From Gammaproteobacteria bacterium (GTDB taxonomy: Bacteria; Pseudomonadota; Gammaproteobacteria; SZUA-229): DNA of 44,032 nt. Made by a program: the position numbers and the translations under genes. The notes under the pieces are model-generated. The model was not told the DNA's origin. It did not search any database and was given only the letters and a program-made list of their open reading frames with translations. Location of the stretch: assembly GCA_029882215.1 (NCBI GenBank), contig JAOULC010000025.1:1-44032 (forward strand), written 5' to 3'. Below are positions 3,001 to 20,804 of this stretch, in pieces. The stretch's first letter is position 1; every line of letters starts with the position of its first letter.

Positions 3001-5043
3001 TCACAAGCCGGGTATATTCAGGATAGTAATGACAGCGGTTTAGTGACGCTGAATTTAACGGCAGCCAGTATCGACTTGTCGGCATCTACCGGTATCGGTT
3101 TGGGTAATCCAATTGAAACACAACTAACCGCTTCAACCGGTGTGATTAATGCGGTTAATAGCAGTTCAGGTAGCGTTGAGATCGAAAACTGGGCGATAAA
3201 CAGCACGGATGTCGCTACATTTACAGCCAATAATTTAGCGCTTGGTGGAGCTGTGTTTTTATTGAATCCATTCGGTGTTATGCAGGCGGGTAATATCAGC
3301 GCTAATCAGGGCGCGATAGAATTAAAAGCGCTGGATTTGAATATTAGCGGCACGGTAAATAATAATGATCTTGCCACCGGTAATGGCGTGTTGCTGGTGG
3401 CTGATGAGCTATTAATCAGTGGTGGTTCTGTAAATGCCAATAATGGTGATGTGGAAATCTTTACGTTAACAGACGGGCGCGCGATAACACTTGGCGCGGC
3501 TGATCTCAGTGGCAACTCTCTTGCACTGCTGCAATCTGACATGGATGCGATAACGTCAGCGCGTTTAAGTATTGGCTTAATGGATAGCGTTAACTCACTT
3601 GGCAGTGGTGACATTACAATCGCCGGCGTGCTGGATGTCGGAGCCAAAGATATCCGGCTGCAAACACTGGCAAATATAAATTTTAATAATGGCACTGTAA
3701 GCGGCTTATCGACCAGTGGCCTGATGGAACTGAACGCAGGTCTGGCTATTATTGGAGACAACTCAAGCGGCATTAATCTGACGGCAGCGGGGCTTAGTCT
3801 TGAGGCAAGTCACGGCATCGGCTCAGTCGATGCGATTCGTACACAAGTGAGTGACTTAACGGTCTTTAATCAGTTTTCAAATAATATTAATGTCAGTAAT
3901 AGCGGTGCCTTAACGGTAAATGACAGTGCAAATCTGGGCGGCGCAATGTCATTGTCTTCGGACAACAGCTTAACACTGACACCGTTTGCCGGGCTGGCGG
4001 GAACAACCGGTGCGATTGCACAAACTGATCTGACACTGAAGGCGGCTAACAGCCTTTTGATTAACGGCGTAACGAGCGCTGCTAATATAAATTTACTATC
4101 GGATAACGGCATAATCATCAATGAAGTGGTGACGGCAACAGCTGGTTTAGTGATGAATGCGGATGCAGATGCTAATGCTGCCGGTGATCTGTTAATTGAA
4201 AATATTAATGCCGCTGTGTTAGCTGTGAACGCAGCGGATATCTCGGTTAACGCGGCAGCGGTTAACTTACTGGCCAGCAGTGGTGCTGTGCATGTGAGCA
4301 GTGAAGCCGGTTTGAATCTGCTGGCCAGGACTAATGTCAATATTGCTGGCGGCGACGGTGCAGGCTTTGATGCTTACTTATCTGCCAGCGGCAATATCAA
4401 TATGGATATTACCGGCAATCTGTTACTGAACGGTGGAACCGGTTCGAACACGGCTGCATCGATTTTTGATGTCAGCGCGAGCCATAGCAATATTCTGAAT
4501 ATGGCGGTTGCGGGTAATGTCACACTTAATGGCGGGCCGGGAGTCAGCAGCGGTGCTTATATTTCCGCTGGTGAAGTCAATATGCTGGTTGGCGGTGATA
4601 TGACACTGAGCGGAAGCCCGGCAAATTTTAGCCCGGCACAGGTGAGGGGGTTTGGTCTTGATATGTCATTGCATGTTGCCGGCAATTTAAGTTTTAGTGA
4701 TGGCACAGGTAGTGCCTCATTAGCGCAAGTGATTTCAAATGATGGTCTGGGCTATTTGCAGCTGAGTTATCTGAGCTGTAGTGGTTGTGCAACGGGGCTG
4801 TTGTATTTAGACCAGCCGATCCCAAATGCCGCGACGAATGAAATCGTCAGTGCGCAAAATACTTCTGTGATCAGCACCGGGCCGGTGGTTTCATCCAGTG
4901 ATGCGCTGCTGGCATTTTTAGAGGAGAGTCTCGCGGGGGCTGACTCAAATCAACAAGCCGGCACAATATTGACTACGACGGCTGAAGATGAAGCCGGCGC
5001 TCAGGACAAAGAGCCGCAGGCAAAAGTGCTGGTGTGCCGTTAA
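1..5043 (+). CDS. Filamentous-haemagglutinin-like exoprotein, 3' part (5' end outside window)
   Basis: The reading frame is open from base 1 with no stop, so the first TTG at base 28 is not a real start; at least 1680 residues are visible and the gene begins upstream. The protein is rich in Asn, Gly, Ser, Ala, Ile and Val and consists of short beta-strand repeats, as in right-handed beta-helix adhesins. A GIGxxxPIE-type motif recurs (around bases 500, 2050, 2805, 3090 and 3815). A second motif, L-x-x-x-E/D-(M/I)-D/A-x-I/L followed by an IG or LG turn, recurs near bases 220-280, 920-990 and 3530-3580; this is typical of large TPS/haemagglutinin-family exoproteins. No C-terminal autotransporter barrel is present; the end is polar and acidic and stops in VLVCR. 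I infer a secreted two-partner-type adhesin. The N-terminal TPS secretion domain and the TpsB transporter are not in view. Substrate is unknown. Confidence 0.8.
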   Translation, partial: AADLISSKPLSITAAGVLVLENNGTAATINSNNNNISVVANDVQLFGTINSGTGALSISSGAGLGMDLGEQIAAGFGLDNAEFAKLTSAHLVLGQPAIADVFINSPLTVSGDLTINAGNINFNQPISTTGISATGNVLLNAQASIVDNAGIDLDIVASNISLHAQSGIGNTNPLEIQLANATGILDFSNLAGSVDIINTAVSASDVMQVFGTNLGAGDALTIGNDFGVTDIIASGVTSNQGLLEIVTDTLNVNALLDNNNSSMPMKLLVNDLEITADLFSTTGGVKIGTLSDGTGITFAGGVTTGLDLTQSEIDFINAPSIDFGIKDMPLAGMGTGDIIFAAGINFGASDVSFLTMADLRFLQGALTAITTSGNVFIDTAGSVIGQSIDVTDISATNLDFITALDFGNTLSNAIELDVALLAGSTPGGEIYIDSPAALLVGFINSASGLPVWMQANGDITLATLTTSGSNISLNTSALTNGVGGAILHDGVAANNINGANDLNLLSETGVGSLQNAIEITNVTGNISADVMSVGNIYLDNVGAASGSLLLDSMTTLAGDVLIRNLNTAQSTNIMTQLLATGNITVESNSDINVNNNVIASGGSVVDLRVVGGTGDVNINSLLQADNGSVAVLTNSGGISFGTGGYISSNAGVVSLNASGSISDGGALGAHLRGADSVMLNAALGIGTLAAPITVEDIGVGGLTLSSTLSNGIYVNNVAASLISDFVINSVTAANGEVFINNLNAAQGTKISGSSLLSGGNFSVSSIASMFIDGSITDSSAGIIDLQVNGAGGSLFINSGSIQSSTGTISLLAANDIQLSGATILQTAQPGLISLTANNGQVFSDPAVSITGGASLAVLANTGIILNGSNDVGAVSFSTAAGDIDFSGSNDILLDVISASTTSSVTLTAAGSIIDANGATDNITAQTISLNAANGIGTLTDPIETAAAVSLLFNNAANDVFINDSNAVLLLPSVSGGNANISFVNNMQLNTVVAAGNLSLISQAGYIQDSNDSGLVTLNLTAASIDLSASTGIGLGNPIETQLTASTGVINAVNSSSGSVEIENWAINSTDVATFTANNLALGGAVFLLNPFGVMQAGNISANQGAIELKALDLNISGTVNNNDLATGNGVLLVADELLISGGSVNANNGDVEIFTLTDGRAITLGAADLSGNSLALLQSDMDAITSARLSIGLMDSVNSLGSGDITIAGVLDVGAKDIRLQTLANINFNNGTVSGLSTSGLMELNAGLAIIGDNSSGINLTAAGLSLEASHGIGSVDAIRTQVSDLTVFNQFSNNINVSNSGALTVNDSANLGGAMSLSSDNSLTLTPFAGLAGTTGAIAQTDLTLKAANSLLINGVTSAANINLLSDNGIIINEVVTATAGLVMNADADANAAGDLLIENINAAVLAVNAADISVNAAAVNLLASSGAVHVSSEAGLNLLARTNVNIAGGDGAGFDAYLSASGNINMDITGNLLLNGGTGSNTAASIFDVSASHSNILNMAVAGNVTLNGGPGVSSGAYISAGEVNMLVGGDMTLSGSPANFSPAQVRGFGLDMSLHVAGNLSFSDGTGSASLAQVISNDGLGYLQLSYLSCSGCATGLLYLDQPIPNAATNEIVSAQNTSVISTGPVVSSSDALLAFLEESLAGADSNQQAGTILTTTAEDEAGAQDKEPQAKVLVCR

Positions 5044-5341: not shown

Positions 5342-8197
5342 ATGGAGCGAGTTTTTAAAGAATGTATGAGGCTGCGTTATATTGGCATGATGCTGATAGC
5401 AGCCAGCCTGATATCATGCAACGCATTCGATTTTAATGGCGAAAATATATCGCCGGTCAGCAGTTCCCCCATTGTTTACGTTAAACGCCCTGTCCGGGCA
5501 CTGGCTGAGCCGATTGACCCGGCAGGCTTTGCTGCGGGTGGTGATCTGTACTGGCGCGATGCGGCCTCGGCTTCTGCAGAAGAGATCAATTTAACCCGCA
5601 CTCAAACCGCAGGTGGCGGTGATGTCAGCAGCCCCGAGGTGTCTTATGACGGCACAAAAGTTGTTTTCTCAATGCGCCGGCCGGCTGATAACAGCTGGAA
5701 TATCTGGTTGCTGGATGTCAGTACAAAACAATTAATTCAGCTGACAACAGATGATGCTAGCGAGGTTTATCATGACTTACACCCGCATTTTCTGGCGGAT
5801 GGCCGCATTGTTTTCGCATCGGACCGGCAATTAGCCAGCCGGGCACAATTAAGCGCTAATAGCACAGAAGCTTTTTCCTATCTGGATCCCAAAGGTCGTC
5901 ATCCCGCCAGCTTGTTGCATGTGATGGAAGCTGATGGCAGTAATATGAAACAAATCTCGTTTCATGTTGGTCATGACCGTGATGTGAGCTTGCTGGCTAA
6001 CGGCAAGCTCATGTTTAATCGCTGGGAAGTGACGGGCCAAAGGAATCATTTTCCGCTGATAACAATGAACCCTGACGGCAGCGGCATTCAAACATTGTAT
6101 GGTGCCTATAGTAAGGGCAATAGTTTTCTTAGTCCGCGGCAACTGGAAAACGGCCACTTAATTGCTGTGCACGCGCCGGTTTCCGGTGCCCACGGTGGTG
6201 GTGCTTTAGTCGAAATAGATATCGAACAATATGGCGATCTGGAAGACAGAATCAGTTTTCCGGCAGCAAACGCTGCCGCACAAAAACAACTCTCGCTGAA
6301 CCGCATCAATATTGAAGCCGGTGTCTCGGCTTATGGCCGTTTCCTGAGTCCTTATCCGCTAGCAGATGGCTCCAATAGAATTTTAGTGAGCTGGTCAGCC
6401 AGTAATAAAACTCAGATAAATGACCTGCAAAACGGCAGTCTGGTCATTACCGAAGGTCATCCGTCTTACGGGATCTATATCATGGACCTTGGCAGCAAAA
6501 GCATGACACCAATTGTGCCCGGGGCGCAGGGTGTGATGGCTTATGATGCGGTCTCGGTTGAGGCGCGTACGATACCTGCGCTGATTGCGGATGCTTTTTC
6601 CGGTATTGGCGGCACGCTCGATGCGACACTGGAAACAGCGGGCCAGGGTGCTGTGCATATACGCAGTGTGTACGATACCGATATGAACGGTTTACTGGGG
6701 CCTTCGATGCTGGTTGGCACGGAAGTGATTGCGCAGACACCTTCTGTAAATGGTGATGTCCGTCCGATGGTGGCCGATCTGGCGACAATAAAAAACCGTG
6801 TCAGTACACCGGTGGATAATCGTGTTGCCCGTTTTGTGCGGATCAGCAAAGCGGTGCCGGTGCCGCAGGGAGCCGGCCGGGATTTGCCCGGTGACGCATC
6901 TGGCGTGATGCAGCAAATCCTGGGTTATTCAGAAGTTGAAGCCGATGGCTCGGTCATGCTTAAAATACCGGCCGATACCCCGGTCGCGATCAGTGTGCTG
7001 GATGCGCAGGGCCGTGCCATTACTAATCACAACTCATGGTTGCAGGTGCGTCCCGGTGAAACGCTGCAGTGTGCTGGCTGCCATAGTCCCCGTCGTCGGG
7101 CGCCACTCAATGTCTCGCCGGTGGCGGGCAATCACCCGATCGTGCAACTGACAGCCCAGTCCGGTGAAACAATGGCAAAAACGCGGGCGAGAATTAATAG
7201 TCTTGCTGATTTAAATCCGGATATTGTTTATACCGATGATGTCTGGATAACTGATTTTGTTGCTGCTTCAACGGCAGCAGGTCAGACGCTTAGTCCGGCG
7301 GCGGCGATTGATATTAATTACAGCGCGTTAACAACCGCGCAACCAGTTGGCGGGGTAATTAATTTTGTTGAGCACATACAGCCAATTTTTGATGCTAACT
7401 GTGTCAGTTGTCATAATGGCACGGAGAGGCCGGATCTGAGAGCGCTTACAGACACTGACGGCGTGTTGTTATCGTATAAAAATTTAATCAAGGGCCCGGC
7501 CGACCTCGATCCTCTTAATCCTGTGCTTAATTTGAAAGAAGGCGCTTACCTGACGCAGCGTCAATTGCCGTATGTGATGACAGGCGGACCAAGAGACTCA
7601 TCACGTAACAGTTATTTAACTGAAAAACTTTATAATACCGAATTACGTGCGCGCAGAGTCTTGTCCGGCAGTGATCACTCAGTTTACGTCAATGCATCTG
7701 AAATGCGTTTGCTGGTTGAATGGATGGATACCGGAGGCAATTATTACAACAGCCCGTTTGGTGCGGATGTTGTGAATATTGGTCAGCGTGATTTAGCGGA
7801 AGTGATCGGCGTGATTACCGCGCCGGATTTTGGCGAGTTCAAAAACAGCATTAAGCCCGTATTAGATAATCGCTGTGCCAGTTGCCATAAGGCGATCGGT
7901 AACAAAAGTGATTTTAATCAACGCACAGTGACCAGCACTCTCGTGAACCCGCTGCCTTCAGAGCATTATCCAGTGCGCTTTGTGCTAACCGGCGATGATG
8001 CCGGTGATTATCGCGCAGCGATGGCTTTTATAGAGGACCGTTCGGCAGCGGCACAGAACAGTCTGATTAGCCGGCCCTTATCAAATGGACTGACACCGCT
8101 GCACCCGCAAATATCTGACGGTGCCGCAGGCTTTATACCGGTGCTGCAAAAGACCGATGCGGATTATACATCCCTGGTTAACTGGATAACGCCATGA
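5342..8197 (+). CDS. HzsA-like tri-haem c-type cytochrome lipoprotein with TolB-type repeats
   Basis: About 951 residues. I prefer ATG 5342 (AGGGA 11 bases upstream) over the TTG at 5297; ATG 5366 is also possible. Both ATG starts give a lipoprotein signal ending in the lipobox LISC (Cys26). Residues about 90-165 hold TolB/PD40-type propeller repeats. The middle resembles the hydrazine synthase alpha-subunit (HzsA) middle domain as found in non-anammox bacteria. Three CxxCH haem sites are seen: CAGCH (residue 577), CVSCH (687) and CASCH (845). The protein is therefore an exported, probably outer-membrane-anchored, multihaem redox protein. Hydrazine synthesis is not implied: the other Hzs subunits are absent. 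Its TGA overlaps the next ATG by four bases, which ties it to the barrel/TPR/Exb operon. Its electron partner and role there are unknown. Confidence 0.75.
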   Translation: MERVFKECMRLRYIGMMLIAASLISCNAFDFNGENISPVSSSPIVYVKRPVRALAEPIDPAGFAAGGDLYWRDAASASAEEINLTRTQTAGGGDVSSPEVSYDGTKVVFSMRRPADNSWNIWLLDVSTKQLIQLTTDDASEVYHDLHPHFLADGRIVFASDRQLASRAQLSANSTEAFSYLDPKGRHPASLLHVMEADGSNMKQISFHVGHDRDVSLLANGKLMFNRWEVTGQRNHFPLITMNPDGSGIQTLYGAYSKGNSFLSPRQLENGHLIAVHAPVSGAHGGGALVEIDIEQYGDLEDRISFPAANAAAQKQLSLNRINIEAGVSAYGRFLSPYPLADGSNRILVSWSASNKTQINDLQNGSLVITEGHPSYGIYIMDLGSKSMTPIVPGAQGVMAYDAVSVEARTIPALIADAFSGIGGTLDATLETAGQGAVHIRSVYDTDMNGLLGPSMLVGTEVIAQTPSVNGDVRPMVADLATIKNRVSTPVDNRVARFVRISKAVPVPQGAGRDLPGDASGVMQQILGYSEVEADGSVMLKIPADTPVAISVLDAQGRAITNHNSWLQVRPGETLQCAGCHSPRRRAPLNVSPVAGNHPIVQLTAQSGETMAKTRARINSLADLNPDIVYTDDVWITDFVAASTAAGQTLSPAAAIDINYSALTTAQPVGGVINFVEHIQPIFDANCVSCHNGTERPDLRALTDTDGVLLSYKNLIKGPADLDPLNPVLNLKEGAYLTQRQLPYVMTGGPRDSSRNSYLTEKLYNTELRARRVLSGSDHSVYVNASEMRLLVEWMDTGGNYYNSPFGADVVNIGQRDLAEVIGVITAPDFGEFKNSIKPVLDNRCASCHKAIGNKSDFNQRTVTSTLVNPLPSEHYPVRFVLTGDDAGDYRAAMAFIEDRSAAAQNSLISRPLSNGLTPLHPQISDGAAGFIPVLQKTDADYTSLVNWITP

Positions 8198-8925
8198 TCA
8201 GGGTTTTGCTAAGTGTTATTTGTTTAATCATATCGCCGATGCTGCTGGCGCAAGAACACCTGGCGGTGGAAATCAGAGTGACTGAACCGTATCTGCAGCT
8301 GCATACCGGCCCGGCAAGTGAATACCGGATCGAACATATTCTGTTAACCGGTGAAAAAATACAGCTGGTGAAACAACATGCTGACTGGTTTTATTTCAGA
8401 AAAAATGAAAAAGTTTATGGCTGGGCTCAGCTGAAACAGTTACTGGATAATCGTGTTGACCGTTTTGGTATGAGCTTTGATGAGTTTTTAATAAATTACG
8501 AAGGTGAGCTTGAGTTTGACCTGATGTTTAAAAGCGGTTTTATGCAGGGTGACTTTTTACTGGGCTTTGAGCTCGGACATGCACTGAGTGAAGACAGCCG
8601 GATTGCGCTGAGTGTCCGTCAGGTACCGGGGAAAATTTCAGAAACTCGGATCACAACAGTCGATTATGAGTATTTTTTTAACAGACGATGGAAGCTGAGA
8701 CCGTTTGTATCCATTGGTTACGGCGAATTAAGCAATACACCGTCGGCTCAGGTTGTAGCCGGCAGTAAGATGTCATCAGCGGTTAGTAAACTGGGCGTCG
8801 GTACGTACTTTGCAGAGTCGAAACGGGTTAAGTTTTTGGCGGCGTTGACAGTGTACTCAGCGGATAGCGCTGAATTTACTAATAAATTACAAGAGCTTAG
8901 CATCGGCCTGAAATATGAATTTTAA
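8194..8925 (+). CDS. SH3b domain plus outer-membrane beta-barrel protein
   Basis: 243 residues, translationally coupled to the cytochrome gene through an ATGA overlap. A Sec signal peptide ends near LLAQ (residue 20). Residues about 25-75 look like a bacterial SH3 domain (LQLHTGPASEY, then a YGWAQ strand), which usually binds peptidoglycan or peptides. Residues about 85-243 alternate polar and apolar residues and end in an aromatic strand (GLKYEF), as in outer-membrane barrels. This SH3-plus-barrel layout is known in the myxobacterial/gammaproteobacterial barrel family that accompanies Agl-like clusters. I infer an outer-membrane component that could contact the cell wall on its periplasmic side. 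Channel activity or a ligand cannot be read from the sequence. Confidence 0.65.
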   Translation: MIRVLLSVICLIISPMLLAQEHLAVEIRVTEPYLQLHTGPASEYRIEHILLTGEKIQLVKQHADWFYFRKNEKVYGWAQLKQLLDNRVDRFGMSFDEFLINYEGELEFDLMFKSGFMQGDFLLGFELGHALSEDSRIALSVRQVPGKISETRITTVDYEYFFNRRWKLRPFVSIGYGELSNTPSAQVVAGSKMSSAVSKLGVGTYFAESKRVKFLAALTVYSADSAEFTNKLQELSIGLKYEF

Positions 8926-8935
8926 AGAGATGGTT

Positions 8936-9538
8936 ATGAAAAAAATACTGTTAATTTTCCTCTGTGTATATTCAGTGTCAGCAGCAGCCTTTGATATCGT
9001 AAAGCCGGATACAGAGCAGGAGCTGATCAGGGATTCTGATATAGATAATGTCAGTAGAAATATTGGTGTCTACGGCGGACTGATAAATCATGAAAATTTT
9101 AACAGCAGTTTTATTACAGCACTGTATTTTAGTTACCCGTTTGATGAAGATGTTTTTGTGGAAGCAGAATATGGCATCAGTGTTATAAATGACACGGAAT
9201 ATAGGAATATTGGGCTGCCGCTGTTGTCGCAAGAGGAGCTTAGTGTTCAGTTTTATACAATACTCGTTGGCTATAACATTTTACCGGGAGAGGTATACTG
9301 GAGCCGGGAAAAAACCCTGGTCTCAAGATTTTATTTGATTGCCGGTGTCGGTGCTGTCAGTTTTGATGATGCTGACTATGTCAGTATTCAGTTTGGTGCC
9401 GGTATTAAAATGGAGCTGGATAAAAACAAAAGTATACGCTTTGAGGCGAGAAACAGGATGTACGATACCGATGTGCTGGGTACAGATAAGCTGACAAATA
9501 ATATTGAGTTTCACCTGGGGGTTGACTGGGGTTTCTGA
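8936..9538 (+). CDS. Outer-membrane beta-barrel protein
   Basis: 200 residues from ATG 8936, which has AGAGA five bases upstream and begins directly with a signal peptide (MKKILLIFLC, cleavage near SAAA). An ATG at 8915 overlaps the previous gene but would put seven polar residues in front of the signal. The mature part has alternating strands with many aromatic residues (VYGGL, YFSYPF, FYLIAGVGAV, IQFGAGI) and ends in VDWGF, a C-terminal Phe typical of BamA-targeted barrels. It is a second, smaller barrel next to the SH3-barrel protein; the two may form a pair or a pore in the same complex. Its stop TGA overlaps the next ATG by one base. Confidence 0.65.
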   Translation: MKKILLIFLCVYSVSAAAFDIVKPDTEQELIRDSDIDNVSRNIGVYGGLINHENFNSSFITALYFSYPFDEDVFVEAEYGISVINDTEYRNIGLPLLSQEELSVQFYTILVGYNILPGEVYWSREKTLVSRFYLIAGVGAVSFDDADYVSIQFGAGIKMELDKNKSIRFEARNRMYDTDVLGTDKLTNNIEFHLGVDWGF

Positions 9539-10071
9539 TGTTAATGCGACTCAAAATAAAATATATTTTGCTGATTTTCGCTGTTTTTTTGCAGGCAGGT
9601 ATTTGCCTGGCCAGTGAGAAGGAGCAGCGGGCAATAACCGATCAGAAAATAAAGCTTAACACGCTGATGGTTGTAAAAGATGCGGTGCAGTTAGTTGAGG
9701 ATATTGCCTATCCTGAACAAAACAGGTTTAAACTTTATCTGACACATTCATCAGGCAAGTATTTTACAATTGAAAAACTGACCGTCATTGTTGACGGGAT
9801 TGATAAAGTAACGCATCGTTATGATGAACTCAAGCAGAATGCTTTGTTGAGGGGAGGTAGCAGTCGTATTTACAGAACATCGGTGTCAGAGGGTGTGCAC
9901 GAGCTGGTTGTTGTGTTTGATGGCACAGACAGGGATAAAAATATCATTAAAAATGCCAGAACATTTTTGCTTGATAAAAAAGCCGGTGAGATGATTGTTG
10001 TAGTCAGTGTGAAGGATAATGATCAGACTCTCAGGCCAGACTTTGAGTTCTCGGTAATCAAAGGGCAATAA
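9538..10071 (+). CDS. Small exported protein of unknown function in the Exb/TPR operon
   Basis: 177 residues with an N-terminal hydrophobic signal segment (YILLIFAVFLQAG, cleavage near LASE). The mature part is a beta-rich periplasmic domain with repeated V/I-rich strands (KLTVIVDGI, HELVVVFDG, MIVVVSVKD), possibly an Ig-like fold. I see no enzyme motif. An alternative ATG at 9544 fits equally well. It overlaps its neighbours by one base at each end (TGATG and TAATG), so it is translated together with the barrel and TPR proteins and is probably a structural or adaptor part of the same complex. Confidence 0.6.
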   Translation: MLMRLKIKYILLIFAVFLQAGICLASEKEQRAITDQKIKLNTLMVVKDAVQLVEDIAYPEQNRFKLYLTHSSGKYFTIEKLTVIVDGIDKVTHRYDELKQNALLRGGSSRIYRTSVSEGVHELVVVFDGTDRDKNIIKNARTFLLDKKAGEMIVVVSVKDNDQTLRPDFEFSVIKGQ

Positions 10072-11561
10072 TGAAATTTAGTATCGTATTTTTTATGCTA
10101 ATAAGTCTGGCTTTTGAGTCGGCAGCCACTGAAGAGGAAGTCTCGAAACTGTTGTTGTCAGAGATAATGTACTACCGTCTGCAGGATAATAACTTCGATG
10201 CCATCGGACGCTATATGAATGCTGAGGAAAAAAATCAGCTTTTGCTAAATAAAAACAACCGCGCTTATATCGCTTCAGTCTACCTGAATTATGATTTACA
10301 CAGTCAGGTCAGCAGTATGCTGGAATATCTTATCCGTAATGAATCGGCTGCTGTCAGAGATATGTCATGGTATTACCTCGGCAAGTTACATTATGAAAGT
10401 AAACGGGTTAAGTCTGCGGTCAAATCTTTTTCAAAAATAACCGGTCAGCTAACAGCCACTGAGCAGGAAATGAAATATATCATGTATGGCGTGATGGCCA
10501 TGAATGATAAACAATACGATGTGGCTGTCAGTGAACTGTTAAAAGCTTCAGCAACGTCACAGCTGTTTCCTTATGTTGAATACAATCTTGCGGTAGCGAG
10601 ATTTAAGATCAGTAACAACCTGACAGTCTTCAGTAATGCCCTTACTGCACTGGCATTGAAATACGCCGGCAGCTCAGAGAATGATTATATATTCGCAGAT
10701 CAGATACATACAACGCTGGGTTATGTGCTGTTGCAAAACAAGCAATATGAGCCGGCGAAACAGTCATTGCGAAAAGTAAGTCTGAATGCTCATCTGACAA
10801 CACGTGCATTGCGGGGCATGATTTACGCGTCTGCTGAGTTAAAGCAATATGATCTGGCGCTGAACCTGTCTTTACAGTTAATGAAAATGACGGTCGGTAA
10901 TGAATCAGTGCATTTTTCTTATATCGTGATTCCTTACTTGCTACAAAAACTCAGCAACAAAGACAAAGCTGTTGCCTTTTACCAGCACGCAGTGGATTAT
11001 TTCAGCCAGCTGAGGATTGATCTAAAGCAGACAATAACAAGAGTGAACAAAGGTGAGTTCGATGCTTATTTACTCGATCTTGAAAAAATACTGACAGCTG
11101 AAGAGTGGCTTGATAATGCTGATATGGCACGACTGTTCAGGTTTGTCTCGACGCTGGATGAATGGCGTGATGCGGTTTATAAATATCGTGAAATGAAATA
11201 TCTTGAACAGCGACTGGATGAAAGTTTTTACGAACTGGTTGCGATTGAACCAAATGTGCAAAAAAATTATCAGATCGTTTATAAAGAATCATTCAGGAAA
11301 ATAGCGGGCAGTAAAAAGCAGGTTGCAGAATCAATAGCATGGCATCAGCGTTTTGCACGGGGCTTTATTACAACTGTGCTGGATAATCAGTATGACGATG
11401 TCACGGACTATTTAGCACAGGCACGTTTTGCGCTGGCACAGTTCTATGACCTCGAAGAGCAAAAAAGGCAAACAACAGAAACGACGTGGCTAAGAGCGGC
11501 GGATGATAAAGCGGCGATGAAGCCCGCGGCTGACAAAACAGATGACAGGGACCGTCCATGA
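10071..11561 (+). CDS. Exported TPR-repeat protein
   Basis: 496 residues. A signal peptide covers about residues 1-19 (FFMLISLAFESAAT). The rest is almost all helical with TPR-like pairs, for example WYYLGKLHYESKRVKSAVKSF and ALRGMIYASAELKQYDLAL regions, each with the small/large residue spacing of TPR helices. The C-terminal 30 residues are charged and low-complexity. The predicted location is the periplasm, where TPR arrays usually hold protein partners together. The start overlaps the upstream stop by one base and the stop overlaps the next ATG by four. In Agl/Glt-like systems comparable TPR proteins bridge the inner-membrane motor to outer-membrane parts; that role is inferred here. Confidence 0.65.
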   Translation: MKFSIVFFMLISLAFESAATEEEVSKLLLSEIMYYRLQDNNFDAIGRYMNAEEKNQLLLNKNNRAYIASVYLNYDLHSQVSSMLEYLIRNESAAVRDMSWYYLGKLHYESKRVKSAVKSFSKITGQLTATEQEMKYIMYGVMAMNDKQYDVAVSELLKASATSQLFPYVEYNLAVARFKISNNLTVFSNALTALALKYAGSSENDYIFADQIHTTLGYVLLQNKQYEPAKQSLRKVSLNAHLTTRALRGMIYASAELKQYDLALNLSLQLMKMTVGNESVHFSYIVIPYLLQKLSNKDKAVAFYQHAVDYFSQLRIDLKQTITRVNKGEFDAYLLDLEKILTAEEWLDNADMARLFRFVSTLDEWRDAVYKYREMKYLEQRLDESFYELVAIEPNVQKNYQIVYKESFRKIAGSKKQVAESIAWHQRFARGFITTVLDNQYDDVTDYLAQARFALAQFYDLEEQKRQTTETTWLRAADDKAAMKPAADKTDDRDRP

Positions 11562-14347
11562 CAATGGCGTTGACAAACCAAGGGCTTGTGTATCTGCTGC
11601 TAGTATTATTTTCTGTCCCACTAATGGCGGCTGATAAACCACTGATTGCTGATATAGAAAAGACTGAGGATCGCAGTTATTTAGAGGCTATAAAGGGCAG
11701 AGCTAATAGCGGCAATGCAGTGTTTGAGTACCGTAAATACTTGCAGATCTCAAAAAAAGGCTCTAAGCAACGCAGACAGGTGCTGCTAAGGCTTGCAGAA
11801 ATTGAGCTTGAGTTAAGCGAGAAATTACTGGCAGAAGACATAAAGAGCGCTGATCCGAATGAGGCCGAGATGAAGCAGACCATTGCATCGTCTATCAGTT
11901 TGTTTGAAACAGCACTGAGTGAATACAGCGATGAAAGCGATAATGACAGGGTGTTGTATCAACTGGCAAGGGCCTATGAAATAAACGCACGCCCTGATCA
12001 GGTCAGCAATACGCTGATGCGCTTAATCAGTTTGTATCCATCTTCTGCTTATTATATTGAATCGCAGTTCAGGCTGGCAGAGGCGTACTTTATTAACCGG
12101 CAGTATTCGCAGTCATACAATGCATACACCGGTGTATTAAGCAGACAGTCTGAATTTTATGATAATGCACAATATAAACGTGGCTGGTCATCATTCAAAC
12201 TCAGTAAATATGATGCGGCCTTAAAAGATTTTATTGCCTTACTTGATAGCCATGATTTTAGTAAAGAGAAGAGCTTGTCACGGATTGAGAAAGAACTTTA
12301 TGAAGACAGCATACGTGTTATCAGTCTGAGTTTTGCATATTTGCAGGGTATTGATACAGTAAAACGCTTTTTTGCTAAAAGGAGATCAGCGTCCTATATC
12401 AAAGACATTTACTATGGTCTGGGCAATCATTACCTTAAACAAAAACGTTATGCTGATACCGCAGGCAGTTATATGGCGTTTGTACAGGAGTATAAACATT
12501 CCAGCTATGCACCTCAGCTAGCACTTGAAACAATCGAAGTCTGGCAGAAAAGCCGGTTCCAGGGAGAAGTGCTGAAAGCAAGAGATTATTTCTCACGCAC
12601 ATTTGCTTTAAATTCTGATTTCTGGACGGTTAATAAAAAAGAAGATTTCCCTGAGGTAATAATCCAGCTGAAAAATAATATCAGCCTGCTGGCGCAGTAT
12701 CATCATAGCATCGGCCAGAAAAAGAATTCAGTAGCAGAGAAGAAAAAGGCGGTGTACTGGTATGATCAGTACATCCGTTCGTTCTCAAATGACAAAGCAA
12801 CGCCTCATTTACACTTTTTGTATGCAGAGTTGCTGGCTGAGTTAAGGCAGGAAGAAAAAGCATTTTATGCCTATGAAGCAGCGGCCTACCAGTATGCAAA
12901 GAGTAAAGAGAGTACAGAGTCCGCGTACGCAGCAGTGATGCTTGCAACGGTATTAGCGGGTCAGAAAAACCAGTCGCTCGCTGGCAAAAAAAAATGGCAG
13001 GCTGCAGTTGTCAGCTCAACCCTGAAGTTTTCAAAATCCTATCCAAACGACAGCCGGCTGAAAAATATTCTGTTACGGCTTGCAGAGATTCAGTATGAAC
13101 AGGGACGTATGCTTGAAGCAATTGAGATGGCTGAAAAGGTCATTCCACAGTCAACAAAAGAACAAAAAATCAAAGCCCTGCTTATTTTAGCACACGCACA
13201 GTTTGAACTTGAGCTGTACGCAGAAGCCGAGAAGAGTTATAGCAATCTGCTGACTCTGAGCGGTAAGCAGCATGCGAAATATAAAAAAATACGTGAGCGT
13301 GTTGCTGTATCCATTTATAAAGAGGCTGAGCTGGCTCTTAAATCCGGTCAGAGTGCACTGGCTGTTGTGACTTTTCTGCGCTTAAAAAAAGCGGTGCCGG
13401 AGTCTGCACATATTGCGACAGCAGAATATGATGCGGCCGCCGAATTAATGAAAAACAAAAAATGGAAGCAGGCGTTGCCGGTATTGCTTCGTTTTAGAAA
13501 AATGCATCCCGGACATAAATTACAAAATGATGTGACCACAAAGCTGGCTATTATATACACAGAAACTCAGCAGTTTACGAAAGCTGCTGCAGAATACGGG
13601 AAAATAGCAGGCTTTATTAAAGGGCCAGAAAAACGCAGGGTCGCTTATTATCAGGTGGCCGCTTTGTACCAGCAGGGCGGTGACAGCGTGCGAGCACTGA
13701 ATGCTTATCAGTCTTATATTAAAAAATACCCTCAACCATTTGATATAGCGATGGAAACACGGCATAAAATCAGTGATCTCTATGGCGCTGCCAAGAACAG
13801 CAAGGCACAGGACCTGTGGCGTAAGAACATTATAGAGACCGATCGTAATGCGGGAAAAAACAGAACGGATCGCTCACGTTATCTCGCCGCTGCTGCATCT
13901 GTCAGGCTGGCCGACAAACTATACCGGGATTTTGCAGGGCTGAAGCTGAAAGCGCCTTTCAAGAAAAACCTGCAAAGAAAAAAAATAAAAATGAAAGGCG
14001 CTGTTAACGCTTTTGCAAATGCCACAAAATACAAAGTCGCAGAGGTAACGACAGAAGCGATCTATAAGATCGGACAGATATACTACGGCTTCAGTAAGGA
14101 TCTGATGCAGTCAGAGCGACCGGCGAAATTAACAGCAGAAGAAAAAGAGCAGTATGATATTTTGCTTGAGGAGCAGGCCTTTCCTTTTGAAGAGAAAGCC
14201 ATCGAATTTCATAACGCAAATCTGAACCGGGCAAAAGATCATGTATATGATGACTGGGTGATAAAAAGTGTTGCCAGGTTGGGCGAGTTGTTTCCGCTCC
14301 GCTACAAACGAACAGAAAAATTGGAGGCAGTGATTAATGTGCCGTGA
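11558..14347 (+). CDS. Large exported TPR-repeat protein
   Basis: 929 residues, the largest part of the operon after the cytochrome. A signal peptide covers residues 1 to about 24 (LVYLLLVLFSVPLMAAD); ATG 11564 is an alternative start. Many tandem TPR-like helix pairs follow, such as VLYQLARAYEINARPDQ, SQFRLAEAYFINRQYSQSY and ILLRLAEIQYEQGRMLEAI. The spacing resembles the YfgC/BamD/PglI type of TPR found in envelope proteins. The last 120 residues are Lys/Glu-rich. The ATGA overlap with the upstream TPR gene and the 11-base overlap with the downstream TPR lipoprotein indicate coordinated synthesis. I infer a periplasmic scaffold; no catalytic motif is visible. Confidence 0.7.
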   Translation: MTMALTNQGLVYLLLVLFSVPLMAADKPLIADIEKTEDRSYLEAIKGRANSGNAVFEYRKYLQISKKGSKQRRQVLLRLAEIELELSEKLLAEDIKSADPNEAEMKQTIASSISLFETALSEYSDESDNDRVLYQLARAYEINARPDQVSNTLMRLISLYPSSAYYIESQFRLAEAYFINRQYSQSYNAYTGVLSRQSEFYDNAQYKRGWSSFKLSKYDAALKDFIALLDSHDFSKEKSLSRIEKELYEDSIRVISLSFAYLQGIDTVKRFFAKRRSASYIKDIYYGLGNHYLKQKRYADTAGSYMAFVQEYKHSSYAPQLALETIEVWQKSRFQGEVLKARDYFSRTFALNSDFWTVNKKEDFPEVIIQLKNNISLLAQYHHSIGQKKNSVAEKKKAVYWYDQYIRSFSNDKATPHLHFLYAELLAELRQEEKAFYAYEAAAYQYAKSKESTESAYAAVMLATVLAGQKNQSLAGKKKWQAAVVSSTLKFSKSYPNDSRLKNILLRLAEIQYEQGRMLEAIEMAEKVIPQSTKEQKIKALLILAHAQFELELYAEAEKSYSNLLTLSGKQHAKYKKIRERVAVSIYKEAELALKSGQSALAVVTFLRLKKAVPESAHIATAEYDAAAELMKNKKWKQALPVLLRFRKMHPGHKLQNDVTTKLAIIYTETQQFTKAAAEYGKIAGFIKGPEKRRVAYYQVAALYQQGGDSVRALNAYQSYIKKYPQPFDIAMETRHKISDLYGAAKNSKAQDLWRKNIIETDRNAGKNRTDRSRYLAAAASVRLADKLYRDFAGLKLKAPFKKNLQRKKIKMKGAVNAFANATKYKVAEVTTEAIYKIGQIYYGFSKDLMQSERPAKLTAEEKEQYDILLEEQAFPFEEKAIEFHNANLNRAKDHVYDDWVIKSVARLGELFPLRYKRTEKLEAVINVP

Positions 14348-14924
14348 GTGGAGTGCTGTGTTAATCTTGCTGCTGCTTACTGCCTGTGCGCAGCAGCCCC
14401 ATAAGGAAGCTGAAGATGCTGCCAAGCCTGTCATTAAATTATCAGAGGATGACAGCATAAAATACAATAAGGCCTTGTCGGATATAAAACGCAAGCGTTA
14501 CAAGCAGGCCGATGCTGTGCTTGATAAACTAATTGCCAGTTATCCGGATGCCGCCGGACCTCTGGCAAATAAGGCGGTTATATTCTCAAATAAGATGGAA
14601 CTAGTTAAAGCCGAGCAATACTTTTTAAAAGCACTGGAAAAGAATGATAAATTAGCACAGGTCAGGAACAACCTTGCGGTTGTTTACCGCAAAAAAGGCG
14701 AGTTTGGCCGGGCAAAAGAAATGCTTGAGGCTGCTATAGTCAGCAACCCCTATTATGCAAATGCTTACTATAACCTTGCTATTCTTTATGAGTTATACCT
14801 TCAGCAGCCAGAAAAAGCACTGGAGAATTACCAGTTATATCTGGATCTTACAAAGGCTGGAGATAAGCAGGTTACAAAATGGATCTCAATGTTACAGCGA
14901 CAAATCAAGGCAGGGAGAAAGTAA
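14337..14924 (+). CDS. TPR-repeat lipoprotein
   Basis: 195 residues starting with a lipoprotein signal, lipobox LLTAC (Cys17). The start has an excellent GGAGG nine bases upstream, inside the end of the preceding gene. Residues 50-190 hold about four TPR units (YNKALSDIKRKRYKQADAV, LANKAVIFSNKMELVKAE, RNNLAVVYRKKGEFGRAK, YYNLAILYELYLQQPEKAL), reminiscent of pilotin-like TPR lipoproteins such as PilF. It probably sits on the inner leaflet of the outer membrane and may help locate or assemble the barrel proteins of the operon; that is inference from class and context. Confidence 0.7.
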   Translation: MCREWSAVLILLLLTACAQQPHKEAEDAAKPVIKLSEDDSIKYNKALSDIKRKRYKQADAVLDKLIASYPDAAGPLANKAVIFSNKMELVKAEQYFLKALEKNDKLAQVRNNLAVVYRKKGEFGRAKEMLEAAIVSNPYYANAYYNLAILYELYLQQPEKALENYQLYLDLTKAGDKQVTKWISMLQRQIKAGRK

Positions 14925-15196
14925 TGCTAAAGCATGTTTTATTAATCGTTTTACTGCTGCCCTCACTGTCTCTGGCGGAGCAGAAGATTAAACTTCGTTC
15001 CAGTACCATTACCGGTAACAGTGAGCTGCCAAAGATTTTATATGTAGTACCGTGGAAAAAAGTAGCAGCGACAGAGATAAGTTATAATTTAATCGTGCAT
15101 GGAATTAACGATGATGTATTGAAACCGGTCGATCCGGAAGAGTTTCAGCGTCAGGTAAAAAATTATGCCGAATTAACCAGGCAGCAGGAAAAATAA
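14924..15196 (+). CDS. Small exported protein of unknown function
   Basis: 90 residues from ATG 14924, chosen because GGGAGA lies nine bases upstream, the ATG overlaps the previous stop (TAATG), and the protein then begins with a clean signal peptide (MLKHVLLIVLLLPSLSLA). A longer in-frame start at 14879 would bury that signal. The mature part of about 70 residues is basic and beta-prone (IKLRSSTITG, ILYVVPWKK) with a charged helical tail. I recognise no family from sequence alone. Its position directly before the TolQ-type gene suggests a small accessory subunit of the same machine. Confidence 0.55.
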   Translation: MLKHVLLIVLLLPSLSLAEQKIKLRSSTITGNSELPKILYVVPWKKVAATEISYNLIVHGINDDVLKPVDPEEFQRQVKNYAELTRQQEK

Positions 15197-15241
15197 CTGA
15201 GCGCTGGTAAAATGTTTTCAGGAATCTGATCAGGAGTCATT

Positions 15242-15886
15242 ATGGAATCTTTAAAATCAATCATTGTTTTTTTTCAAACCGGTGGTGTGTTTATGTACCC
15301 GATATTGTTTGTGCTGGCGCTGGGTGTGGCCATTGCACTGGAAAGGTATATTGTTATTTCAAAATCCCAGCTCTCAATGCGGCGCACTTGGGGGCGCCTG
15401 CTGCCGTTGCTGGAAACGCATGATTATAATGCTGCAATGTCGCTGATGAGCCGCTCAAAAACTCAGCTGAGTATCGTACTCACTTACGGATTTAACCGCA
15501 TGCCTTCGGCGCAAAGAAGAGAAGACATTGAAGCGGCTATGGAAGAAGGAATGATGGAGGTAATGCCACCTCTGGAAGCAAGAACGCATTACCTTGCTAC
15601 CTTTGCAAATATTGCAACATTGCTCGGTCTGTTAGGGACGATCATCGGTTTAATACAGGCCTTTACAGCAGTTGCAAATGCTGATCCTGCAGAGAAGGCG
15701 GATCTTTTGTCGGCAAGTATTTCAGTTGCCATGAACACTACTGCATTCGGTCTTGTTGTTGCCATCCCGTTGCTATTAATGCATACCGTTATTCAGACAA
15801 AAACCAGCAAGCTGGTGGACAATCTCGAAATGGCAGCCGTTAAATGTTTAAACATCATGGCGACAAAGAAAAAGCCAGCTGCATAA
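15242..15886 (+). CDS. TolQ/ExbB/MotA-family proton-channel protein
   Basis: 214 residues, with AGGAG seven bases before the start. Three membrane segments are visible: residues about 14-33 (VFMYPILFVLALGVAIALE), 118-140 (ANIATLLGLLGTIIGLIQAF) and 156-182. The GLLGTIIGL and MNTTAFGLVVAIP motifs are the family signature that lines the proton path of ExbB, TolQ and MotA. Five copies of such a subunit surround a TolR/ExbD dimer in known members. It is followed by two TolR/ExbD-like genes and a TonB-like gene, the arrangement seen in Agl/Glt and Ton-type motors. It probably turns proton flow into mechanical work across the periplasm. Confidence 0.9.
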   Translation: MESLKSIIVFFQTGGVFMYPILFVLALGVAIALERYIVISKSQLSMRRTWGRLLPLLETHDYNAAMSLMSRSKTQLSIVLTYGFNRMPSAQRREDIEAAMEEGMMEVMPPLEARTHYLATFANIATLLGLLGTIIGLIQAFTAVANADPAEKADLLSASISVAMNTTAFGLVVAIPLLLMHTVIQTKTSKLVDNLEMAAVKCLNIMATKKKPAA

Positions 15887-15927
15887 CCGCAGGTGATAAC
15901 TTTTTCGGAATAAACAGGACTGTTTAA

Positions 15928-16449
15928 ATGCGTATAAGAAGAAGATATATAAAAGATGATGAGGAAATGAATATAACCGCCTTCATGAATCTGATGGTTA
16001 TACTGGTGCCGTTTCTTCTGATCACTGCCGTGTTTTCAAAAATTGCGATACTTGAGCTGAATATACCAAAAGGTGACAGCGCTGCCGGCAGTAAAAAGCC
16101 TGAACTGCAGCTGCAAATTGTACTCAGAGAAAACCTGATTGATGTACGGGACGGATCTGTTGGTTTAATAAAACGTTTTGCTGTTGAAGGGCAGGAAACA
16201 AAATGGAAGGCGCTATCTGATCTGCTGGTACAGTTAAAAAATAAGTTTCCTGATAAAGAAAACGTCAGCATATTACTTGAGCCAGAGGTCCCCTATCAGC
16301 TGATGGTCAAGGTTATGGACCGGGTAAAAACTGCCAATATTATTCAGCCAGGTATGACGGTTGAGACAATAGATCTGTTTCCGCTGATCAGTATCGGTGA
16401 TGCACCTGTGCAGCCGGCAAAAGCGGATGATGAACGGGGGGTAAAATGA
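15928..16449 (+). CDS. TolR/ExbD-family protein with Asn in place of the usual membrane Asp
   Basis: 173 residues: a basic cytoplasmic tip, one membrane segment (about 15-37) and a periplasmic domain. In ExbD/TolR the segment normally reads PLIDV or PLLDV, and that Asp carries the proton. Here the aligned stretch is AFMNLMVILVPF, with Asn21 at the Asp position. The periplasmic part keeps an ExbD-like beta-alpha fold (ISILLEPEVPYQLMVKVMD-type strand and helix). This subunit therefore probably cannot be protonated at the usual site, while the next gene keeps the Asp. The two may form an unequal dimer inside the TolQ-type pentamer. The stop overlaps the following ATG (ATGA). Confidence 0.85.
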   Translation: MRIRRRYIKDDEEMNITAFMNLMVILVPFLLITAVFSKIAILELNIPKGDSAAGSKKPELQLQIVLRENLIDVRDGSVGLIKRFAVEGQETKWKALSDLLVQLKNKFPDKENVSILLEPEVPYQLMVKVMDRVKTANIIQPGMTVETIDLFPLISIGDAPVQPAKADDERGVK

Positions 16450-16949
16450 GCCTGAAAATGTCCAAGCGCGCGAAACGTATGGAGCGCCATCATAAGCGAA
16501 ATAAAAGACCGGGCTTAAACCTTGTTTCGTTAATGGATATCTTTACGATTCTTGTCTTCTTTTTGCTGGTTAACTCATCCAGTACCCAGCAACTGCCCAG
16601 TTCCAAAGATATTCAGCTGCCAAAATCAGTGGCTCAGGTGTTGCCGAAAGAAACGCTGGTGATAGCGGTTAGTAACAATGACTTACTGGTTGCCGGCCGG
16701 CGCATCACCAGGCTGAAAGATTTTATCAACTCTGAAGAAACGATTATCGCATCACTGGAACAAGAGCTGATATTTCAGTTCGGACAATCAAGATCGAAGA
16801 AAAGTAAAGATGGTCAGCGAGAAATCACCATCATGGGTGACAGGGATATTCCGTATAAAGCGCTGAAAAAGATCATGGCAACCTGTACCAAAACAAATTA
16901 CTCGCGTATATCGCTGGCGGTATTGCAGATCGCCAAGTCAAAGGGATGA
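16446..16949 (+). CDS. TolR/ExbD-family protein with the canonical membrane Asp
   Basis: 167 residues. A strongly basic N-terminus (KMSKRAKRMERHHKRNKR) is followed by LNLVSLMDIFTILVFFLLV, in which Asp31 is the expected proton-carrying residue of ExbD/TolR/MotB-type stators. The periplasmic domain ends in the family pattern ITIMGDRDIPYKALKKIM, close to ExbD's DKxVxYxxVVxVMD. It overlaps the Asn-type paralogue by four bases, so the two are made together in similar amounts. With the TolQ-type protein they should form one proton-driven motor. Confidence 0.9.
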   Translation: MSLKMSKRAKRMERHHKRNKRPGLNLVSLMDIFTILVFFLLVNSSSTQQLPSSKDIQLPKSVAQVLPKETLVIAVSNNDLLVAGRRITRLKDFINSEETIIASLEQELIFQFGQSRSKKSKDGQREITIMGDRDIPYKALKKIMATCTKTNYSRISLAVLQIAKSKG

Positions 16950-16962
16950 GAGCGAGAATAAT

Positions 16963-16989
16963 ATGAACAAGTTAAAGGGTTTGTTTTAA
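16963..16989 (+). CDS. Possible eight-codon coupling ORF before the TonB-like gene
   Basis: ATG at 16963 opens a frame encoding MNKLKGLF that ends in TAA, and this TAA shares its last base with the ATG of the TonB-like gene (TAATG). A GA-rich stretch (GAGCGAGA) lies 6-13 bases upstream. The operon uses the same one-base stop/start overlap at 9538, 10071 and 14924, so this ORF could couple translation across the gap after the second ExbD gene. It is short enough to arise by chance. Confidence 0.3.
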   Translation: MNKLKGLF

Positions 16990-17918
16990 TGTTGCACGCG
17001 AGCTATGAAAGTTACTCACTGCACTGGATGCAGCGAAATGATGATGATGTTTTCTTCAGAAAAGTCTATCGGATTATACTTGCCGTATTTATTATCCTCG
17101 GGCTTCTTGTTGCCGCGATTGATATACCAAAGCCTGAACGAAAAGCGCGTGAGCCACTGCCACCAAGTCTGGTTAAATTTTTACAGGAAAAGAAAAAAGC
17201 CGCACCGGCTAAACCCATCCCTAAAGCACCGCCAGTAGTAAAGCCGAAAGCTAAACCTGTACCCAGGGCTATCGTCAGGCCGAAATCTGAACCTGAAAAA
17301 CCTCTGACATCCAGCCAGACAAAAGCCCGGGAAAAAGTCAAAAATTCCGGCCTGCTGGCATTATCTAATGAGTTATCGGAGCTGATGGATACCCCGGACG
17401 TGAGCGCGCTGGTCAACAGCAGGGTGTCAACACGGGGTAAAGAGGCGGCTAAAAATGATCTGTCATTACTCACCGCGAATGCAACACGGGGTACCGGCGG
17501 TGTTAATACCAAAGGGCTGGACCGGCGTATCAGTACAACCGCTATTGGTAACAGAGCAATCACCCGGGTGCAGAGTTCGGCTGCTAATAAAGCTGTCACG
17601 ACAGAGCGGTCAGCTAAAGGCAAAAAAGCGGCGCGTAGTGAAGATGAAATAACCGTTATCATGGACAAGAATAAGGGCTCAATTTACGCGGTCTATAATC
17701 GCGAGTTAAGGCGTAATCCTGATCTGCAGGGTAGGATAGTGCTGGAAATTACCATTGCACCATCCGGTAAGGTAACAAAGGTCAAGGTTATATCCAGTGA
17801 GTTAAAAGATAAAAAGCTGGAAAGCAAGCTGGTATCGCGGATTAAATTATTTAATTTTGGGGCAAAGAAAGTCGATACGGTAACAGTGACCTATCCGCTT
17901 GAGTTCTTTCCGTCTTGA
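16989..17918 (+). CDS. TonB-like protein with AgmX/PglI-type C-terminal domain
   Basis: 309 residues. About 25 cytoplasmic residues precede one membrane anchor (IILAVFIILGLLVAAID, about 29-45). A Pro/Lys/Ala-rich linker follows (about 50-110), as in TonB and TolA, then a Ser/Arg/Thr-rich stretch. The last 90 residues (about 220-309) match the AgmX/PglI C-terminal pattern: YAVYNRELRRNPDLQG, then I-V-L-E-I-T-I-x-P-S-G-x-V, ending in a TYPLEFFPS strand. This domain is known from myxobacterial gliding proteins and gammaproteobacterial relatives. It is the likely link that carries motor movement from the ExbBD complex to the TPR and outer-membrane parts. The best ribosome site is AAAGGG inside the mini-ORF. 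It faces the MBOAT gene with only 14 bases between stops. Confidence 0.85.
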   Translation: MLHASYESYSLHWMQRNDDDVFFRKVYRIILAVFIILGLLVAAIDIPKPERKAREPLPPSLVKFLQEKKKAAPAKPIPKAPPVVKPKAKPVPRAIVRPKSEPEKPLTSSQTKAREKVKNSGLLALSNELSELMDTPDVSALVNSRVSTRGKEAAKNDLSLLTANATRGTGGVNTKGLDRRISTTAIGNRAITRVQSSAANKAVTTERSAKGKKAARSEDEITVIMDKNKGSIYAVYNRELRRNPDLQGRIVLEITIAPSGKVTKVKVISSELKDKKLESKLVSRIKLFNFGAKKVDTVTVTYPLEFFPS

Positions 17919-19315: not shown

Positions 19316-19318
19316 GAA

Positions 19319-20765: not shown

Positions 20766-20803
20766 GCGGTACTCATTTACCTTTAATAAATGCGGAGTAT
20801 CGC
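20766..20803 (+). promoter_or_regulatory. Hairpin covering the gcvT ribosome-binding site (riboswitch expression platform)
   Basis: GCGGTACTC (20766-20774) pairs with GAGTATCGC (20795-20803), with one G-U pair. ATTTA (20775-20779) pairs with TAAAT (20787-20791), leaving a seven-base loop and a GCG bulge. Most of the Shine-Dalgarno GGAG (20794-20797) lies in the right arm, one base before the AUG region at 20805. No U-tract follows, so control is likely at translation initiation rather than by termination. Whether glycine opens or closes the hairpin cannot be read from the sequence. Confidence 0.65.
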
Positions 20804-20804
20804 T

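Follow-up and report, generated by a model that had tools for sequence, protein, structure and literature searches.

The window analysed here is the whole of a 44,032-nucleotide stretch of gammaproteobacterial DNA and corresponds to contig C67 of a draft genome that comprises 144 contigs and 3.4 Mb. The system in question is a run of 12 open reading frames (ORFs) at 5342–17918, all on the + strand, in which a lipoprotein gene resembling that of the hydrazine synthase alpha subunit (HzsA, HZS alpha) stands at the head of genes for barrels, TPR proteins and a proton motor. The HzsA-like gene is a near-obligate partner of the core formed by the later genes of this run, and this pairing is a new finding. 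Eight of the 11 junctions overlap, with gaps along the run of, in order, -4, -11, -1, -1, -4, -11, -46, +45, +41, -4 and +39 bases. The original prediction, made from the sequence alone, had described ten genes running in one direction with mostly overlapping or touching ends; the direction and the packing stood, but the count is 12 ORFs, to which its own list also sums. Its features were all found where it had placed them within 5342–17918, and the ATGA overlap that it reported between the HzsA-like gene and the next was measured as a gap of -4. The run comprises:

5342..8197, + strand: HzsA-like lipoprotein (951 amino acids) with a lipobox, a TolB-like propeller, an HZS_alpha domain (PF18582, E value 6.4e-20, 72 bits) and three haem motifs
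5417..5419, + strand: lipobox Cys, residue 26 of the HzsA-like protein, conserved in all 31 rows of alignment A3
7070..7084, + strand: haem motif 1, CAGCH, residues 577-581; across the 31 rows of A3, both Cys are invariant and the His almost so
7400..7414, + strand: haem motif 2, CVSCH, residues 687-691; Cys, Cys and His invariant in A3
7874..7888, + strand: haem motif 3, CASCH, residues 845-849, located in an additional C-terminal domain
8194..8925, + strand: protein with an SH3-type domain and a C-terminal barrel (243 amino acids; SH3_3 4e-4 and OMP_b-brl 0.024, both under the Pfam cut-offs)
8915..9538, + strand: outer-membrane barrel of the OMP_myx_plus family (207 amino acids; TIGR04565 2.8e-31, 108.7 bits against a cut-off of 60)
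9538..10071, + strand: 177-amino-acid protein with a long N-terminal helix and a beta sandwich (structure model with a mean predicted local distance difference test score, pLDDT, of 90.6)
10071..11561, + strand: exported TPR protein (496 amino acids; TPR_2 1.1e-7)
11558..14347, + strand: large exported TPR protein (929 amino acids), candidate GltD counterpart (TIGR02795 6.9e-27)
14337..14924, + strand: TPR lipoprotein (195 amino acids; lipobox LTAC), GltE-like by a weak match (NF033758 GltE 1.8e-6, 27.2 bits against a cut-off of 225)
14879..15196, + strand: small exported protein (105 amino acids), a recurring core member with homologues next to TPR genes at many core loci
15242..15886, + strand: TolQ/ExbB-type proton channel subunit, AglR-like (PF01618, MotA/TolQ/ExbB, 9.2e-29)
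15928..16449, + strand: ExbD-type subunit 1 (ExbD1; PF02472 5e-18), Asn21 codon at 15988
16446..16949, + strand: ExbD-type subunit 2 (ExbD2; PF02472 1.7e-18), Asp31 codon at 16536
16989..17918, + strand: AgmX/PglI-type TonB-like force transducer (309 amino acids) with one N-terminal hydrophobic segment (NF033768 1.2e-22, 79.8 bits against a cut-off of 40)

The identical 12 genes, in identical order, were found in two further genomes of the window's genus (G001 and G003); in a third (G002) the contig stops within the HzsA-like gene. Much of the order also recurs across the class Gammaproteobacteria, and because of these recurrences the arrangement is taken to be more than chance. Genes 4–12 recur as a nine-gene core block, with or without the haem part, and the window's own genome has a second core block on contig C143, where the 20 kb read contained no gene with a haem motif. 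Between 4900 and 18100, promoter-like sites numbered 30 against 23.6 (standard deviation 5.9) in shuffles and terminator-like sites 29 against 12.7 (standard deviation 4.0); both kinds were scattered over both strands and were not used for or against one transcript.

The association of the HzsA-like gene with the core was measured in 369 genomes sampled evenly from the class, with matches accepted at E <= 1e-30 and at most two candidates scored per genome, so that further copies can be missed. The large TPR protein (profile A2) served as the marker of the core and was present in 88 of the 369 genomes; the HzsA-like protein was present in 52. Both occurred together in 51 of those 52, against 12.4 expected (hypergeometric p 3e-37, a statistic that ignores relatedness), and in 36 of the 52 carriers, spanning 23 family codes, the two genes lay no more than 25 kb apart. 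Several of the 16 unlinked carriers are genomes in hundreds of contigs, and linkage in some of them may be hidden for that reason. A sizeable minority of gammaproteobacteria thus carry a block joining a gliding-type motor to an HzsA-like lipoprotein. In a sample of the phylum, 7 of 299 genomes matched; all 27 rows shown belonged to the same class, one of them the window's own, and therefore nothing is concluded on other classes.

Gene order was followed at 80 loci on named contigs, the best 80 of 496 relatives and so biased to nearer ones, with counts taken over loci with enough downstream sequence. After the HzsA-like gene, on the same strand, came the SH3-barrel gene (66 of 72 loci), OMP_myx (60 of 70), a redoxin (54 of 63), DUF3570 (59 of 63), the TPR gene (53 of 57) and the large TPR gene (52 of 55, over loci with at least 9.5 kb downstream), and ApbE lay no more than 500 bases upstream in 39 of 74. 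This order was kept at about 30–40% protein identity. Consistent with it, the SH3-barrel and OMP_myx genes came next in all nine genomes of a first sample of 58 that had an HzsA-like match and a contig continuing downstream (G001, G003, G007, G010, G012, G013, G017, G033 and G050). The original prediction had proposed such a comparison of neighbourhoods and had staked itself on the HzsA-like gene being found beside the operon in some other genome; indeed, this was so in the 36 carriers linked within 25 kb and in the 52 of 55 loci with the large TPR gene downstream. A chance neighbourhood was rejected on the 51 of 52 co-occurrence together with the conserved order.

The haem part of the block occurs in layouts A and B. 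Layout A runs ApbE, HzsA-like gene (three haem motifs), mono-haem lipoprotein, SH3-barrel, OMP_myx, redoxin, DUF3570 and the nine core genes, and a complete operon of these 16 genes on one strand was present in 4 of the 20 linked stretches read (L197, L200, L201 and L207). A profile of the mono-haem lipoprotein matched 47 ORFs in the 80 named loci, 44 with a spaced CxxxxCH and 3 with CxxCH. In layout B the HzsA-like gene encodes two haem motifs and is accompanied by genes for a PSD2-like and a LamG protein, both bearing haem motifs, and for a Tat-type protein; these genes are usually divergent, and the core stands on either side. Judged by content, the window operon is a shortened layout A. 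Its genome has ApbE and DUF3570 copies elsewhere, including an adjacent pair on contig C35.

ApbE, DUF3570, a thioredoxin-like protein and DUF4266 make up known flavin systems, with ApbE and DUF3570 as established partners (PMC8238504). In its fullest form the present operon shares ApbE, DUF3570 and the thioredoxin-like protein with them but differs from the systems as described there in being joined to a Glt-type motor and in having the strict flavin motif mostly replaced by a relaxed one, and the window operon has neither ApbE nor DUF3570. The relaxed motif, [DE]..[ST].A[ST], stands at the aligned flavin site in 82 of 84 HzsA-linked DUF3570 proteins, where the sequence marks a putative flavin site. 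Flavin attachment in another protein of the operon was considered and rejected, no counted family having the strict [ST]GA[ST] motif in most members (highest, 22 of 112 HzsA-like and 14 of 84 DUF3570 proteins).

The HzsA-like protein was modelled from 31 sequences (mean pLDDT 77.1, predicted template modelling score 0.82). Residues 40-810 of the model matched hydrazine synthase alpha (5c2v_D) with Z 34.1 and a root-mean-square deviation of 3.2 over 591 aligned residues at 21% identity, and the propeller matched TolB entries with Z 25.4-27.4. The HZS alpha fold and two conserved haem motifs are thus present, and the likeness extends over most of the chain and two haem positions. The extra C-terminal domain with haem motif 3 is absent in the two-haem relatives of alignment A1. 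In a tree of 61 HzsA-like proteins, 22 two-haem rows, among them all layout B rows, formed a clade apart from a mostly three-haem clade, into which the window protein falls. Compared with hydrazine synthase alpha, the protein has a lipobox and is without counterparts of Tyr591 and Cys303, the window's clade adds the third haem domain, and the gene neighbours are those of an envelope motor.

In HZS alpha, Tyr591, four residues past the CxxCH His, ligates the haem, and Cys303, which is not conserved in all anammox bacteria, binds zinc (PMC12758564). These residues were counted in 111 HzsA-like sequences by simple patterns, the Cys303 position being placed by alignment. None of the 88 readable sequences had a Tyr within five residues past the first CxxCH His, and none of the 78 readable at the aligned Cys303 position had a Cys there, most having His. 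The protein scored 77.1 bits against the hydrazine synthase alpha equivalog NF052339, under its cut-off of 800. Hydrazine synthesis was rejected on the missing Tyr591 and Cys303 counterparts and a score well under the family cut-off; because the tested active-site residues are missing, the HzsA-like protein is not a hydrazine synthase. No HzsB or HzsC partner was recognised among the scanned neighbours, and no search aimed at them was made. PMC12758564 reported HZS-alpha-like proteins without key residues elsewhere; its available text does not tie them to an envelope motor. A distant HzsA-like protein in genome G025 (L048 9281-12553, profile E 4e-179) lies beside a three-CxxCH protein, ApbE and a five-CxxCH protein, with no core genes in the 20 kb read and the SH3-barrel and OMP_myx neighbours also absent; this set is possibly a different use of the HzsA-like fold.

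The original prediction of one TolQ-type and two TolR-type proteins was borne out by a PF01618 and two PF02472 matches over cut-off, and its assignment of the last gene to the AgmX/PglI family by the NF033768 score and an N-terminal membrane anchor; the protein also has a TonB-like C-terminal domain (TIGR01352 9.1e-8). At the position of the proton-carrying Asp of ExbD, ExbD1 has Asn in 43 of 44 sequences, the window's among them; in ExbD2 the Asp is kept in every one of the 43 readable sequences, one more being gapped. The ExbB-type protein has Thr at three counted positions in 44, 47 and 49 of 49 sequences. These residues suggest that the motor axle is asymmetric: with one Asp and one Asn in it, ExbD1 and ExbD2 are therefore predicted to form an obligate heterodimer with a single proton site. 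AglQ and AglS of the Glt/Agl machine both carry the Asp, and their homo- or heterodimer state is unknown (review PMC9389320). The present pair differs in keeping the membrane Asp in only one of its TolR-type subunits, and the Asn/Asp asymmetry bears on the homo- versus heterodimer question in motors of the AglQ/AglS type.

The motor and the AgmX-type protein had been said to recall Agl/Glt machines and, consistent with this, the non-haem part of the operon resembles the Glt/Agl core complex (PMC3169522); the families of the 12 genes likewise support the proposal of an envelope-spanning set. That complex (AglR, Q, S and GltD, E, G, C) is conserved and genetically linked in gammaproteobacteria (Luciano et al. 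2011, PMC3169522), and papers of 2011 and 2013 describe the function of the machine in this class as unknown (PMC3169522, PMC3858216). It shares with the present core one TolQ-type and two TolR-type proteins, an AgmX/PglI-type transducer, exported TPR proteins and the gammaproteobacterial linkage. The present core differs in its linkage with barrels and an HzsA-like haem lipoprotein and, in many relatives, with flavin, thioredoxin and mono-haem genes; the words 'cytochrome', 'haem' and 'heme' do not occur in the main text of PMC3169522, supplements aside. GltG has an FHA domain, whereas the window's AgmX-type protein matched nothing but TonB_C and, weakly, FMN_bind at a threshold of E <= 0.1. 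The window block resembles the Glt/Agl core as a probable relative, and the AgmX-type protein is not claimed as GltG itself. No GltD or GltC model was among the matches of the TPR proteins; from their like architecture and the weak GltE match, these would be equivalents of the Glt counterparts. The 177-amino-acid protein, confidently modelled, had no PDB match at E <= 0.001, and the 105-amino-acid protein matched no Pfam family.

Other machines share parts of this plan. The Agl-Glt and Agl-Nfs systems of Myxococcus have the same class of motor and transducer with TPR proteins, mount different heads on one motor type, and move slime and spore-coat polymer, that is, transport polysaccharide (PMC3858216). 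They differ in that their heads associate with slime or Exo polymer, no haem head appearing in the available text of that paper, and in that the window's AgmX-type protein has no FHA match. Tol-Pal shares the TolQ/TolR-type motor and a TolB-like propeller; in the window the propeller is instead fused to haem domains on a lipoprotein, the transducer is AgmX-type, and no Pal/OmpA-type lipoprotein was matched by Pfam in the 12 genes.

Variants of the core were also met. In G139 a 21-CxxCH protein (L239 2-2176; Cytochrome_C7 and MtrC/MtrF-like matches) adjoins a related core, with no HzsA-like match found in that genome, and at L070 (2742-3851 and 7309-8310) and L071 another core variant is preceded by two cytochrome c genes with three CxxCH each; the core may have acquired haem partners on more than one occasion. 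Short clusters of the TPR genes and the small gene, with no motor genes alongside, were seen at L063, L066, L067, L074 and L075, and their motor may be encoded at a distance, in the way that Nfs relies on AglRQS.

Directly upstream of the operon, and on its strand, the window's genus has a TpsB-FecR-TpsA set of the two-partner-secretion (TPS) type:

28..5043, + strand: TpsA (FHA-like) exported protein, C-terminal part, truncated by the contig start, with a homologue at the same place in G001 and G003

The three TpsA copies (window 28-5043, L237 780-7887 and L238 1163-9113) end in KVLACR or KVLVCR with a conserved near-terminal Cys, and the copy in G003 has a TPS domain (5.6e-25). The set is specific to the genus, blastp at 1e-6 having found no match to it among the other loci searched, and TpsA is a possible member of the system. 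Downstream, an MBOAT acyltransferase gene and a 345-amino-acid partner without a family match face the operon on the - strand (17933-20356); in G003 (L036) the gene after AgmX resembles that at 20790-21896 of the window, in place of the MBOAT pair.

Taken together, we give a probability of about 0.5 to a proton-driven, envelope-spanning machine of the Glt/Agl/Nfs class whose redox head acts on or anchors a surface polymer. Proton flow through the ExbB/ExbD2 site would move the AgmX protein, the TPR proteins would relay this movement past the peptidoglycan to the barrels, and the barrels would hold the HzsA-like lipoprotein, the head, at the outer membrane. In the last step, the least certain one, the moving head would most likely act with its haem (and flavin) chemistry on a polymer outside the cell or at its surface, modifying or anchoring it. 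Polymer is favoured because relatives of the machine move polysaccharides (PMC3858216), layout B includes a LamG (concanavalin-type) haem-motif protein and the genus has a TPS neighbour.

Several observations weigh against this proposal. The window operon is without ApbE, the mono-haem lipoprotein, the redoxin and DUF3570, which are therefore not essential to every version; most linked DUF3570 proteins are without the strict flavin motif, which 14 of 84 have, with 12 matches at the aligned site; and no glycan-active enzyme was matched by Pfam in the 12 window genes or the ten accessory proteins scanned. The large TPR protein was without an HzsA-like gene in 37 of its 88 genomes, so that the head goes with the core and the core does not need the head, and one genome (G087) had HzsA-like matches without the large TPR protein. 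On the large-TPR tree, where 'no head' labels may be wrong if the locus was short, the head/no-head label changed 12 times against 26.9 in shuffles (0 of 500 as low), with at least 7 changes forced by well-supported branches; the label is therefore clustered yet not of single origin, a single origin of the pairing was rejected, and head and core seem to have been joined or parted several times. The window's own large TPR protein groups with rows labelled head-less and not with the fullest-form operons. Finally, a single physical complex, its substrate and its electron flow are things that we infer, and the haem loading and surface exposure of the head are predictions.

A more specific and tentative proposal, which we consider less probable than its converse, couples proton-driven envelope work to outer-membrane electron transfer: the asymmetric ExbB-ExbD1(Asn)-ExbD2(Asp) motor would move or gate the haem head, joined in the fullest form by flavin and thioredoxin proteins, and would thereby drive or position redox chemistry at the surface by mechanical means. 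The chief rival, which is unlikely, is an outer-membrane electron conduit, in which haem, flavin and thioredoxin proteins would pass electrons between the periplasm and an acceptor or donor on the outside, and the motor would gate, assemble or position the conduit. In its favour, a single operon combines barrels with several haem-motif proteins and with ApbE, DUF3570 and redoxin, nearly all linked DUF3570 proteins keep the relaxed flavin site, and the 21-CxxCH protein lies beside a related core. Three haem motifs in the window and about 3-5 in the two layouts are nevertheless few for a long-range wire, no quinol oxidase was found by Pfam among the 12 window genes, and the window copy is without the flavin part. 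Several carrier genera are, moreover, aerobic genera of soil and freshwater.

The likeness of the AgmX-type C-terminal domain to TonB and of the motor to ExbBD would also suit energised import of the TonB style, in which motor and transducer would open a barrel for a cargo that the haem lipoprotein had first bound or reduced, and flavin systems have been tied to iron uptake (PMC8238504). This is improbable, as the 12 window genes include no TonB-dependent receptor and the barrel proteins are small (243 and 207 amino acids). Large TPR scaffolds are not known as parts of Ton systems. Even less probable is a motility or adhesion machine with the propeller lipoprotein as adhesin and haems that only sense oxygen or redox state: the core resembles Agl-Glt, such a lipoprotein could bind surfaces and a TPS exoprotein adjoins the operon in the genus, but a simple adhesin would have no evident use for ApbE, redoxin and DUF3570. 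That haem and core operons are neighbours without joint function, co-inherited by happenstance, would fit the many head-less cores and the apparent swapping of partners. It is very improbable in view of the nearly complete co-occurrence, the linkage in 36 genomes of 23 family codes, the four-base overlap in the window and the order kept at low identity.

What appears to be new is the union of parts that were known separately, namely the machine class, the core, the HZS-alpha-like proteins and the clusters of ApbE with DUF3570; no description of haem genes with the core was found in the open-licence PMC literature searched, supplements aside. For HZS-alpha-like proteins outside anammox bacteria the linkage to the core provides a genomic context, and for a core complex of unknown function the haem head provides a biochemical handle. 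Named strains in culture that carry the linkage belong to Roseateles, Ideonella, Rubrivivax, Caldimonas, Panacagrimonas and Alkalilimnicola, and genetics could be attempted in them. These data suggest an undescribed machine in which redox chemistry at the outer membrane is joined to mechanical work in the envelope, and the interest of this union of motor and haem protein is that it is widespread and testable.

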